Shown in pieces: positions 7,064-62,306 of a stretch of DNA of 64,000 nucleotides. Position numbers and translations under genes: made by a program. Below the pieces are notes generated by a model. The model ran no database searches. It saw only the letters and a program-made list of their open reading frames with translations, and had not been told where the DNA came from. Within the stretch, counting starts at the first letter, position 1. The number at the start of each line of letters is the position of its first letter. The stretch comes from Candidatus Gastranaerophilales bacterium (GTDB taxonomy: Bacteria; Cyanobacteriota; Vampirovibrionia; Gastranaerophilales; Gastranaerophilaceae), in assembly GCA_944325945.1 (NCBI GenBank), contig CALVBW010000031.1, positions 62,001 through 126,000 of the forward strand. Direction: 5' to 3'.

Positions 7064-7612
7064 AGTAAATCCTTAGTGCCCTATTGCCTTAGTATCTTAG
7101 TAACTTTTTCTTGAGATCCTGAAACAAGTTCAGGATGACAAATGTAGGTCGGATTTTCCGACAGTAAATCCTTAGTGCCCTAGTATCTTAGTAACTTTTT
7201 CTTGAGATCCTGAAATAAATTCAGGATGACAAATGTAGGTCGGATTATCCGACAGAAACTCTTAGTGCCTTAGTATCTTAGTATCTTTTTCTCGAGATCC
7301 TGAAACTAGTTCAGGATGACAAATTGTAGGTCGGATTATCCGACAGAAACTCTTAGTGCCTTAGTATCTTAGTATCTTAGTATCTTTTTCTTGAGATCCT
7401 GAAATAAATTCAGGATGACAAATGTAGGTCGGATTTTCCAACTGTAAATCCTTAGTGCCTTAGTATCTTAGTAACTTAGTATCTTTTTCTTGAGATCCTG
7501 AAACACCTAACGGCTTCGCCGACGGATGCAGGCTCACACAACTCGTTCCTCGTTGGTTCGCTTTGCAAAATTCAGGATGACAGAAAGCGCAGGCTGGGCT
7601 TTCAGCCCAAAA
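7064..7612. repeat. Composite intergenic repeat field, five units of about 90-100 bp
   Basis: Each unit contains a block of degenerate octamers (CTTAGTGC, CTTAGTAT, CTTAGTAA; reverse complement NNACTAAG), then CTTTTTCTTGAGATCCTGAA, a short loop, TTCAGGATGACA, and GTAGGTCGGATTNTCCNAC. The GATCCTGAA/TTCAGGATGAC arms can form a hairpin. The fifth unit has about 65 bp inserted in the hairpin loop (7504-7570), itself rich in small inverted repeats. No gene is seen between 7030 and 7635. The same unit recurs near 18.2, 33.0 and 61.4 kb. Confidence 0.85.
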
Positions 7613-18223: not shown

Positions 18224-18477
18224 TAGTAAATCCTTAGTGCCTTAGTATCTTAGTATCCTAGTAACTTTTTCTTGAGATCCTGAAATAAATTCAGGATGAC
18301 AAATTGTAGGTCGGATTATCCAACTGTAAATCCTTAGTGCCCTAGTATCTTAGTATCCTAGTAACTTTTTCTTGAGATCCTGAAATAAATTCAGGATGAC
18401 AAATTGTAGGTCGGATTATCCAACTGTAAATCCTTAGTGCCCTAGTATCTTAGTATCTTAGTAACTTTTTCTTGAGG
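18224..18477. repeat. Composite CTTAGTNN/hairpin repeat, three units, third truncated
   Basis: Two complete units of about 97 bp and a third that stops within CTTGAG at 18477, just before the phage-like island. The units match those at 7064-7612: octamers, AGATCCTGAAATAAATTCAG hairpin and GTAGGTCGGATTATCCAAC. No gene lies between 18111 and 18509. Confidence 0.85.
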
Positions 18478-26116: not shown

Positions 26117-27100
26117 TTAAATCAACAGAACAATAAGTCCCGCAAGAATTAATGCCGGTCCGAAAGGTAAATAAGTCCTGTTTTCTGGCTCTCTTATTCC
26201 TCTGAGAACTTCTCTGCAGGCAAAAATTCCGATTACGGCAAGAACAATTGCACTCAATACATAGGCAATTGTGTTTTCAAGCCAGCCGAACTGCATTGCC
26301 ATTAAAAATGCTATCGTATATGTCAAAAAAGCTCCGAGTGACAACACTACCATCCAGTTACGGTTGTCAATTTCTTTTTTAACATACACCGGCAAAGTAA
26401 TAATAACCTGAATAATTACGCTCATAATAAGAATTATAACCAGCATTCTCCAGCCGAAAACCGCCCCGAGTCCTGCCGCAATAAAAGAATCACCTTCCCC
26501 GAACGCGCGTGAGCCCGCAATTAAATAGCCGATTCTCGCAACAATTTCCATCACAACAAAACCGAGTATTATTCCGAGAAGAGTGCTGGATACAGGATTT
26601 CCTATAATCCATTCCGTCGTAAAATTAAAACCGCCCGTCAATTGGTGGAATTGATATAAATCAAGCGCTGTTACAAGTATTGCATACAAAATTCCGACAC
26701 CGATAAGAGAATAGGTATGCATGTCAAAAACAACCTTCTCCTTCCAGTCCGTTCCGGCAATTACTATGAACAAGCTGCCGATTACAAGCGCAAATAAAGT
26801 GTCCCAGCTTATTCCGAATTTTAAAAACACCAGAACAAACACAACTCCGGTTAAAAATTCCACAACAGGATACTGTATACTGATTTTTTCTCCGCAAAAT
26901 CCGCATTTGCCGCGCAGAAGAATATATGACAAAATCGGAATATTATGCCACCACAAAAGTTTATGCTGACATTTCGGACATTTTGAAGCCGGAAATACAA
27001 TCGACTCATTGCTTAATGCCCTTAAAATGACTACGTTTAAGAAACTTCCGATACAAAGCCCTATAATAAATACCAGTAACAATACCGCCATAACAAGCAT
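26117..27100 (-). CDS. pilD: Type IV prepilin peptidase/N-methyltransferase
   Basis: 327 residues with eight or more membrane helices. The N-terminal cytoplasmic domain has two zinc-binding pairs, CPKC at 41-44 and CGFC at 66-69. The aspartyl protease motif GEGDSF is present near residue 200, with an Asp in VVFDMHT earlier. It cleaves and methylates prepilins, for example the one at 60327-61595. Somewhat longer than usual through extra C-terminal helices. It follows the sigma factor gene by 12 bp. Confidence 0.92.
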   Translation of the reverse strand: MLVMAVLLLVFIIGLCIGSFLNVVILRALSNESIVFPASKCPKCQHKLLWWHNIPILSYILLRGKCGFCGEKISIQYPVVEFLTGVVFVLVFLKFGISWDTLFALVIGSLFIVIAGTDWKEKVVFDMHTYSLIGVGILYAILVTALDLYQFHQLTGGFNFTTEWIIGNPVSSTLLGIILGFVVMEIVARIGYLIAGSRAFGEGDSFIAAGLGAVFGWRMLVIILIMSVIIQVIITLPVYVKKEIDNRNWMVVLSLGAFLTYTIAFLMAMQFGWLENTIAYVLSAIVLAVIGIFACREVLRGIREPENRTYLPFGPALILAGLIVLLI

Positions 27101-32961: not shown

Positions 32962-33132
32962 GCAGGTCGGATTATCCAACAGTAAATCCTTAGTGCCTTA
33001 GTGCCTTAGTATCTTAGTATCCTTTTTCTTGAGATCCTGAAATAAATTCAGGATGACAAATTGTAGGTCGGATTATCCGACAGAAACTCTTAGTGCCTTA
33101 GTATCTTAGTATCTTAGTATCCTAGTATCTTT
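32962..33132. repeat. Composite CTTAGTNN/hairpin repeat, two units
   Basis: Starts with GCAGGTCGGATTATCCAAC, then octamers (CTTAGTGC, CTTAGTGC, CTTAGTAT, CTTAGTAT), the GATCCTGAA/TTCAGGATGAC hairpin, GTAGGTCGGATTATCCGAC and a second octamer block of five. Same family as 7064-7612. Confidence 0.85.
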
Positions 33133-48083: not shown

Positions 48084-48121
48084 CCCCCCCCCTTGTCGCA
48101 AATTTTTGTTTGTGGTACGCT
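48084..48121 (+). promoter_or_regulatory. Promoter with poly-C tract for pckA
   Basis: C9 (48084-48092) directly against TTGTCG (48093-48098), 17 bp, TACGCT (48116-48121) with TGG in front. The leader of about 45 nt ends in AAAAAGGAGATATATCT before ATG 48171. Confidence 0.6.
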
Positions 48122-60137: not shown

Positions 60138-60209
60138 AGCGGAAGACGGGACTCGAACCCGCGACGTCAACCTTGGGAAGGTTGCATTCTACCACTGAAT
60201 TACTTCCGC
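60138..60209 (-). tRNA. tRNA-Gly (anticodon CCC)
   Basis: 72 nt. Acceptor stem GCGGAAG/CTTCCGC, D-arm with TTCAGTGGTAGAA, anticodon stem CAACC/GGTTG with loop TTCCCAA (anticodon CCC), T-arm CGGGTTCGAGTCCCG. The 3' CCA is not encoded. It reads GGG codons. Confidence 0.95.
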
Positions 60210-60326: not shown

Positions 60327-61595
60327 TTAACACTTCTGTTTTCCGTTAATAGAAAGATCATTACACTTCAAATATTCCATATTGCCTTTTTGTATAACCC
60401 AGAATGTACAATAATAACCGTTGTTACTCTGTCCGTCATCTTCTATGTTGCAATTATACGGAAAATTTTTTTCTCCCATTGGAACAATTTTGTCTCTGTA
60501 TATATAAAAATAAAAAATATCTCTTCCTAACGTATTTGGCGCTGTTGCAAGCCCGTTTACATCAATCCCGAAGTCCCCGCATATCACATTACTGTTTCTG
60601 CATGCAGGGTCATTTATCCAACCGCCTAAAAAAGTCATTCCGTTAGCAAGGCTCAAAGAGGAATAATTCGCCTCATCAATATTTTTCTCACTGCCTGCAA
60701 GCATGTATATCTTATCCACAGGAAACTGGCATGACGAATCATCATAATAACATGAAGAGGCTACTTTTAAATAAGGGCTCAATTTCTGCCAGAAAATCTT
60801 CATGTTTTCAGCACTATCAGCACTTATAACATTTTGCCCGTCATCATCCTGACCATAAGACGAAGCTCCTTTAAATCCCCACGTCCCGAATTCTCCGTTC
60901 TCAATTTTTGCAAGCTGATATGCCTGAGAAATTATACTGAACGCCTGTTTAACTTTTGAAACCGTCGCCTTTTCCTGATAATTGCTTATCAACGTCGGAA
61001 TTGTCATTGCTGCTACAACGCCGATTATGGCGAGGGTGATTAGTACCTCCGCAAGGGTAAACGCGGTCTTTTTAGAAGATACTAAGTTACTAAGGCAGTA
61101 AGGCACTAAGAATTTACTGTGAACTTCGCTCACATTTTTGTCACCCTGAACTTGTTTCAGGGTCTCTTGATTAACGTGAGTAGCGTGAGTTAAGTGAGTG
61201 GCGTGAGGTTTGTGGTTACTGTGAGCTTCGCTCACAGGGTGTACCCCCACCCCCTGAGGGCGGGGGTTGAATTTCAACACAAGCTTGCGAGTGTTTGAAA
61301 TTCGGGGGCGGGGCTTTCTCTGCGTCACAACTGCAAGATCCTGAAACAAGTTCAGAATGACATGGTAAGTCCCACCAATGTTCAGTGTGTTGTCCTGCCT
61401 CAGGTAGTTCAGGATGACAGGTTCTCTGCGAACACAACTATATTGCTCGGGTTTACTATGACGAATGTTACTTCTTAGTATCTTAGTGCCATAGTATCTT
61501 AGTATCTTTACTAGACCAATACCGTCAAAACCCTTACTAACAGTACTTAGAGGAGTCGCCCCCCCCCCGATGTTTGCCATAACTTTTCTTTGCAT
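60327..61595 (-). CDS. Type IV prepilin-like protein; start region invaded by repeats
   Basis: The pilin body begins at SKKTAFTLAEVLITLAIIGV, a class III/pseudopilin-type signal with a hydrophobic helix and a Glu at +5, followed by GVVAAMTIPTLISNY and a C-terminal domain with paired cysteines (about 200 residues). The open frame reaches ATG 61595, which has AAAGGAGTTAATGT, but its first 160 or so codons are repeat sequence. A GTG at 61106 gives a normal leader (MPYCLSNLVSSKKTA) without a ribosome binding site. The cleavage position has Ala instead of the usual Gly. PilD (26117-27100) would process it. The gene may be silenced, re-started internally or phase-variable. Confidence 0.7.
   Translation of the reverse strand: MQRKVMANIGGGATPLSTVSKGFDGIGLVKILRYYGTKILRSNIRHSKPEQYSCVRREPVILNYLRQDNTLNIGGTYHVILNLFQDLAVVTQRKPRPRISNTRKLVLKFNPRPQGVGVHPVSEAHSNHKPHATHLTHATHVNQETLKQVQGDKNVSEVHSKFLVPYCLSNLVSSKKTAFTLAEVLITLAIIGVVAAMTIPTLISNYQEKATVSKVKQAFSIISQAYQLAKIENGEFGTWGFKGASSYGQDDDGQNVISADSAENMKIFWQKLSPYLKVASSCYYDDSSCQFPVDKIYMLAGSEKNIDEANYSSLSLANGMTFLGGWINDPACRNSNVICGDFGIDVNGLATAPNTLGRDIFYFYIYRDKIVPMGEKNFPYNCNIEDDGQSNNGYYCTFWVIQKGNMEYLKCNDLSINGKQKC
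61073..61555. repeat. Repeat cluster inside the prepilin 5' region
   Basis: In order: reverse ACTAAGNN octamers (61078-61110); a hairpin GTCACCCTGAAC/TTTCAGGGTCT (61139-61165) that is a compensated version of the GATCCTGAA element; a GTGAGNNNN 9-bp array (61178-61215); GC-rich inverted repeat copy B (61244-61320); two further CCTGAA elements (61350-61375, 61395-61425); and CTTAGTNN octamers (61473-61510). Confidence 0.8.
61559..61568 (-). repeat. Ten-base homopolymer G tract at codons 10-13 of the prepilin frame
   Basis: C10 on the plus strand, G10 on the coding strand, 27 bp after the ATG at 61595. Length changes of one or two bases would shift the frame, which is the classic layout of a slipped-strand contingency locus. 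Confidence 0.6.
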
Positions 61596-61613
61596 ACATT
61601 AACTCCTTTCAAT

Positions 61614-62306
61614 TTATGCTAATACTTTATCAGTTTTTACCTGTTCCGGCAATTTCGCACAATTTTCATAGTCCGCATTTTCGGATATAAATTTGCACCA
61701 TTCATAAATTATCTCGTCTTCGGACAATTTATAAGAAATAGGTTTGCCTATATATATTCTGAATTTACGTCTTGTAAAAGGTTTCAGTTTAGGGTAGCCG
61801 TTAAATTCCGCAATCGCAACAGGAACTATATCAGCTTTTGCATTTTTGGCAATGACCGCAAAACCTTTTTTAATTCCTTCGAGCTTTCCGTAAGGATTGG
61901 TGCCGCCTTGAGGGAAAACTCCCAGCGACCATTTTGTTGTAAAAATATCACGAACAGTTTTAAATGTAGCGATTTCAGGTTTTGTTCTGTTTACAGCGAA
62001 CGCGCCGAGACGTTTCACCAGCCACTGACGTTTGTCAGTCGGCTCAAAAAGCTCTTCTTTCGCCATAAATGCTATAAGTTTTCTGGTCGCGAACGATACT
62101 ATCGGAGGGTCAAAATTTGAGACGTGGTTTGCCGCGTAAATATATTTGCCGTTGTCTTTAGGCAGATTTTCACGCCCAAACACCTTATAATCATAAAAAA
62201 TTCTCAAAAAATTATCAACGACAACACTCAAAAAAGTCAAGTAAAACAACGAGCGGAACCAGTTGTACTCTTTTGCATAACGTCTGTTGTAATTCCTTTC
62301 CTTCAT
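61614..62306 (-). CDS. PlsC-like 1-acyl-glycerol-3-phosphate acyltransferase A
   Basis: 230 residues with one or two N-terminal hydrophobic segments. Motif I is NHVSNFDPP (HxxxxD) near residue 60; motif III is VFPQGGTN where FPEGTRS is usual. The Gln and the extra Gly are unusual, but the same position in the paralogue upstream is FPQGTR. It would acylate lysophosphatidate. Tandem with 62317-62988 (10-bp gap). AGGAGTTAAGAA precedes the ATG. Confidence 0.85.
   Translation of the reverse strand: MKERNYNRRYAKEYNWFRSLFYLTFLSVVVDNFLRIFYDYKVFGRENLPKDNGKYIYAANHVSNFDPPIVSFATRKLIAFMAKEELFEPTDKRQWLVKRLGAFAVNRTKPEIATFKTVRDIFTTKWSLGVFPQGGTNPYGKLEGIKKGFAVIAKNAKADIVPVAIAEFNGYPKLKPFTRRKFRIYIGKPISYKLSEDEIIYEWCKFISENADYENCAKLPEQVKTDKVLA

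Follow-up and report, generated by a model that had tools for sequence, protein, structure and literature searches.

Dispersed type IV pilin-like genes with repeat-built leaders and probable slipped-strand phase variation in a Gastranaerophilales gut bacterium

The gene under consideration, a prepilin gene in a 64,000-nt window (the whole stretch of DNA analysed) from a Candidatus Gastranaerophilales bacterium, probably a cyanobacterial relative that lacks photosynthesis, is one of the few ON members of a genome-wide family, nearly all other members of which are OFF by one base. We consider it very probable that this family is a large pilin repertoire subject to slipped-strand translational phase variation, with neutral, presumably cleaved leaders and with exchange of cassettes between loci. 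The focal gene is one member of a dispersed type IV pilin-like repertoire, in which each tract gene has its own Shine-Dalgarno sequence and ATG, followed usually nine codons on by a run of G (or C). Slipped-strand replication would alter this run by one base: at the ON length, G10 in the main family, the frame of the ATG passes through the leader into the pilin, and at the usual length of G9 it stops after 15 codons. In the ON state the ribosome would read a leader made of intergenic repeats, which the prepilin peptidase would then cleave off; a leader that is first read and then removed would have to stay open, with its amino acids immaterial. The predicted benefit is that an exposed filament could be varied against immunity or phages.

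Table 1. Features of the focal prepilin gene, its flanks and a candidate processing enzyme (positions in the window)
Feature	Position	Strand	Remark
Focal prepilin gene, ON phase	60327..61595	-	422 aa ORF
Shine-Dalgarno AAAGGAG	61603..61609	-	direct reading
Start ATG	61593..61595	-	27 nt ahead of G10 tract
G10 tract, proposed phase switch	61559..61568	-	codons 10-13
Repeat-built leader, open in pilin frame	61062..61558	-	CTTAGTAT octamer arrays, TTCAGGATGAC palindromes, GTGAGCGAAGCTCAC elements
Octamer array within leader	61473..61508	-	TAT (Tyr) replaces TAG of extragenic copies
Internal in-frame GTG	61104..61106	-	direct reading
Predicted mature pilin, 244 aa	60330..61061	-	after predicted cleavage at KKTA/F
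Acyltransferase directly upstream of focal gene	61614..62306	-	conserved flank, locates orthologous site in sister species
tRNA-Gly(ccc), downstream flank of focal gene	60138..60209	-	
Peptidase_A24 (prepilin peptidase)	26117..27100	-	own genome's only match; candidate leader-cleaving enzyme

Re-reading of the focal gene bore out what the first-pass annotation had described of its layout: the frame is open for all 422 codons, the G10 run lies at codons 10-13, and the ribosome binding site and the ATG (61595) are far from the pilin signal, with ~480 nt of in-frame repeat DNA between them that is composed of the same elements as the intergenic arrays of the window. The sequence ATGTATG offers two candidate starts that overlap; the in-frame one is the second, and its 27-nt spacing to the tract is the commonest in the family (63/117 genus-wide). 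The leader comprises 178 aa before the F (codon 61059-61061) of the prepilin signal KKTA/FTLAEVLITL; this is very long for a prepilin and counts against the explanation by phase variation. Two acyltransferases, recognised by a Pfam search, are located upstream of the gene and a tRNA-Gly downstream. The intergenic arrays (7085-7505, 18226-18476 and 33088-33131) combine CTTAGTAT octamers with ~91-100-bp units in which TTCAGGATGAC palindromes occur; their elements also build pilin leaders, and the intergenic copies retain TAG stops. The window further contains a second, intergenic G9 run (48084-48092, minus strand) beside TTATTCCC-type octamer arrays, with no pilin following it.

The focal protein has the N-terminal class III signal of type IV pilins: TIGR02532 scores above cut-off, as does N_methyl (aa 174-198), alone among Pfam families, and profile comparison matches mature residues 1-63 to solved pilins. 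AlphaFold2 predicts for the mature pilin an N-terminal helix (3-55) and a mainly beta head (mean pLDDT 90.8), and a Foldseek search of this predicted structure against the PDB gave no significant match. The genome encodes both a prepilin peptidase (Table 1) and candidate assembly ATPases, namely four of the T2SSE family, and the products of the ON genes may be expressed as a surface pilus. MutS-type genes are also present, a point against the proposal in that they may keep slippage below the rate of species deficient in repair.

When the own genome (G000; 1.63 Mb in 32 contigs) was searched with the focal protein and the stretches around the matches were read, 117 matches were obtained, many of them to open frames of 250-430 aa, and ~70 prepilin genes or signals were recognised. 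A scan of named-genome contigs for relatives returned only four matches, all distant. While some of the own pilins have ordinary short leaders with ordinary starts (MKKA/FTLAEV), most of the prepilin frames extend back, open, for 50-200 aa to a homopolymer. At least 54 of these genes carry a G or C run of ~8-11, mostly 27, 37 or 40 nt past a ribosome site and ATG, followed by an open repeat leader and then FTLAEVLITL. The leaders fall into three families: one with ...GGATPLS and a G run, the ATG being mostly 27 nt before the run; a second with ...SGGGGSSLTS, a G run and 37-nt spacing; and a third with ...RPPPKLA, a C run and 40-nt spacing. The association of tracts with pilins is not due to chance, since 65 G/C runs of at least 8 are observed in the genome against 6-10 expected from its composition, and nearly all of the 65 are located at prepilin genes. 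Three of the own loci (L036, L057 and L061) show two successive prepilin signals in one ORF (FTLAEGATHVDMS...RRAAFTLAE), a pattern that a duplication of the signal, leaving a repeat in between, would produce.

The reading frames were then assigned to phases. In the main family a G9 tract gives ATG-8 codons-GGG GGG GGG CGA CTC CTC TAG, i.e. a 15-codon ORF encoding M-8aa-GGGRLL-stop (OFF), whereas a G10 tract, as in the focal gene, gives GGG GGG GGG GCG ACT CCT and joins the pilin frame (ON). A change of one unit within the ORF hence toggles between the full protein and an early stop, as read in the 52 own tract genes with an open leader, of which 48 are OFF and four ON; L017, a fifth ON gene with a run of only G6, is outside this tally, and L013 is ON by virtue of an extra A preceding its G9. 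Pooling seven genomes of the genus gives 102 OFF and 15 ON. The ON fraction is well below one third (binomial P about 4e-5). In the second family G11 is OFF and G10 ON; as G10 is likewise the ON length of the main family, whose OFF length is G9, it is the phase and not the tract length that is kept. It is as if two families of one genome shunned the same length from opposite sides, with phase rather than length under selection. Two OFF phases are possible, yet within a family nearly all OFF genes share one of them, a regularity greater than free slippage would give, and this counts against phase variation.

An alternative is that G9 is itself functional and that programmed frameshifting or RNA-polymerase slippage yields pilin at a low level from the shifted frame with the DNA unchanged. 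Such a reading would account for a G9 that is strikingly uniform across genes and species, for leaders that remain open in the shifted frame and for interrupted tracts that keep the same OFF phase (GGAG8 in L015, G8A in L031). However, the families would need opposite shifts, by +1 base at G9 and by -1 base at G11 and G13, which disfavours programmed frameshifting, where one slip site and one direction of shift should be conserved throughout. Many loci, moreover, have in-frame G10 alleles, and such alleles distinguish cassettes that are otherwise nearly identical. We accordingly regard this alternative as improbable. All tract lengths are those of the assembly consensus, with one assembly per species, and short-read data are error-prone in homopolymer tracts of this kind (PMC4235727). 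An artefact in which homopolymers are called too short was considered; against it, the ON tracts are the shorter ones in the second family and in G024 (see below), and the pattern recurs across independent assemblies.

Sister species carry the same set of tract-bearing pilins. At the focal site, downstream of the acyltransferase, the tract is G10 (ON) in the three genomes G000, G002 and G010 and G9 (OFF) in the two genomes G011 and G012; some other species of the genus, G003, G007 and G014, have a terminator-like sequence without a pilin directly there. Of the 33 orthologous locus groups, eight mix ON and OFF members. Close relatives among the copies can differ in tract length and in little else, the clearest pair being L072 of G002 and L126 of G010, which are 99.8% identical over 1106 nt, with upstream flanks 86% identical, and differ by one substitution and one G, the former being ON and the latter OFF. 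Beyond the genus, the 16 loci checked in G024, of genus g10, share this architecture, with pilins of the FTMAEILLSL type and a leader that is short; two are ON at G12 and 14 OFF at G13, each with one G too many. Two further loci of G024, L197 and L198, have G12-G14 tracts in genes without a prepilin signal, so genus g10 may phase-vary other proteins too. G runs of at least 9, common in many other genomes of the family, were present in 100 of the 118 relatives searched, in very different numbers, tallied by the run alone.

The leaders provide a separate line of evidence. Of the 54 own genes that could be tested, 52 have a leader open in the pilin frame, an unselected count, and in leaders preselected as open the +1 and +2 forward frames have about 9-10% stop codons. 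Extragenic repeat copies read in the leader frame contain 22 stops against none in the leader copies; the contrast is conservative, since the 57 extragenic copies listed include a few leaders that a contig end has truncated. Corresponding pairs display the removal of stops directly: KILRYYGTK in a leader versus RY-stop-GTK outside, and LVPYCLS versus LVP-stop-CLS. Differences between leaders are equally distributed over the three codon positions (0.114/0.122/0.117), and those between pilin domains are not (0.122/0.048/0.459), the latter being indicative of strong purifying selection on the pilin domains. Along a minimum spanning tree of own leaders, 326 substitutions are counted, from which about 15 new stops would be expected; none is seen in the leaders compared, and two further genes have one stop each. 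As the leaders are free of stops yet unconstrained in amino acids, openness alone is selected, and a leader kept translatable whose own sequence is immaterial fits its removal by cleavage. Most indels between leaders do not come in multiples of 3 alone, there being no such majority, and about half of the gapped leader alignments change phase, so the frame is conserved by openness and not by in-step alignment.

These observations bear on two other readings. That the tract genes are pseudogenes, with repeats inserted into pilin genes and open by happenstance, was one of the two options offered by the first-pass annotation, and it would agree with the nature of the repeats as dispersed intergenic elements and with the unconstrained leader amino acids; yet the expected stops are missing from the own leaders compared, the pilin domains are conserved as above, and dozens of paralogues, as well as several species, share the design and keep the leader open, making this reading scarcely credible. 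The other holds that constitutive expression of the pilin begins at an internal start close to the signal, the GTG at 61106 or one like it, and that the tract ORF encodes a separate peptide, upstream of the pilin and unrelated to it. The GTG is indeed in frame and in an octamer-like array, as the first-pass annotation had it, and other own-genome pilins do have short leaders with ordinary starts. Direct reading, however, found no ribosome site before the GTG (61104-61106), the same sequence occurs in extragenic repeats, and the region upstream is kept without stops, the extragenic copies showing by comparison which changes removed them; this needs translation from upstream, and the GTG is therefore unlikely to be the only start. 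This reading is very improbable, and both were rejected on the openness of the leaders. The other option of that annotation, a phase-variable surface protein, is favoured by the recurrent architecture, the one-G ON/OFF differences at orthologous loci and the open leaders.

The repertoire also appears to be reshuffled. The focal-site pilin of G000 shares 34% identity with its counterparts in G002, G010 and G012 but 50% with a paralogue from its own genome, and some pilin cassettes are far more alike than their own flanks; in L104/L095 the similarity starts 3 nt ahead of the tract. Judged by these similarities, whole pilin cassettes have evidently been replaced between loci and species. In one example pair, the upstream flank of L041 and the downstream flank of L018, both of G000, match the two sides of one G010/G011 locus, which suggests recombination between pilin genes. 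L041 and L018 are oppositely oriented and 29 kb apart (C30:83827 and C30:113099), and the flank matches suggest that the own genome has undergone an inversion of ~29 kb whose breakpoints fall within the two pilin cassettes. An extension of the phase-variation proposal, which we put forward tentatively and at somewhat less than even chances, is that the leader serves as a translated but functionless homology arm for the swapping of pilin bodies, combining per-gene switching with shuffling, and that the silent tracts are poised towards ON. The arm would consist of intergenic repeats purged of stop codons and cleaved after translation, and each incoming pilin body would come under the promoter, start and phase switch of its new locus; a slippage bias towards insertion at G9 and deletion at G11-G13 would hold silent genes ready for ON. 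In Campylobacter jejuni, poly-G/C tracts are mainly G9-G10, with an insertion bias at G8 and a deletion bias at G11 and above (PMC8355987); by analogy, silent G9 and G11-G13 genes might here be pushed to ON.

The likeness to Campylobacter jejuni extends to intragenic G runs that are mostly G9-G10 and to frames switched by one-base changes, but there the genes are mostly surface-glycan and flagella enzymes, whereas here ~50 paralogous pilin genes have the tract at a near-constant codon. In Neisseria, PilC is a phase-variable adhesin, and the pilin varies by gene conversion from silent copies and is not known to vary by a per-gene G tract, unlike the present system with a G tract in each tract-bearing pilin gene. 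The Neisseria opa adhesins, a family of about 11 genes (PMC3745409), resemble it in being dispersed adhesin genes with a repeat switch early in the ORF. The nearest analogue in scale is vlhA of Mycoplasma gallisepticum, a large paralogous surface-protein family in which (GAA)12 is ON and most members are OFF (PMC6258824): in both systems repeat number sets ON and the family is mostly OFF, but the vlhA tract precedes the transcription start and affects transcription, whereas the pilin tract is inside the reading frame, and the ON genes here number more than one. The Rickettsia palindromic elements (PMC10969869) are a precedent for dispersed repeats that stay in frame within coding genes, in contrast to which the present repeats are all in one gene class, between start and signal, in a segment presumably cleaved off. 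A literature search on phase variation in Gastranaerophilales, with most subscription journals outside its coverage, found no paper.

A tract-switched pilin set is thus present in several species of the genus, with the same design in a second genus. The leaders present a case of selection for openness without amino-acid constraint, for which the extragenic repeat copies are a built-in control. If the proposed phase variation is real, these little-studied gut bacteria would devote a sizeable share of their genes to switchable pilins, in a repertoire comparable in size to those of well-known phase-variable pathogens.
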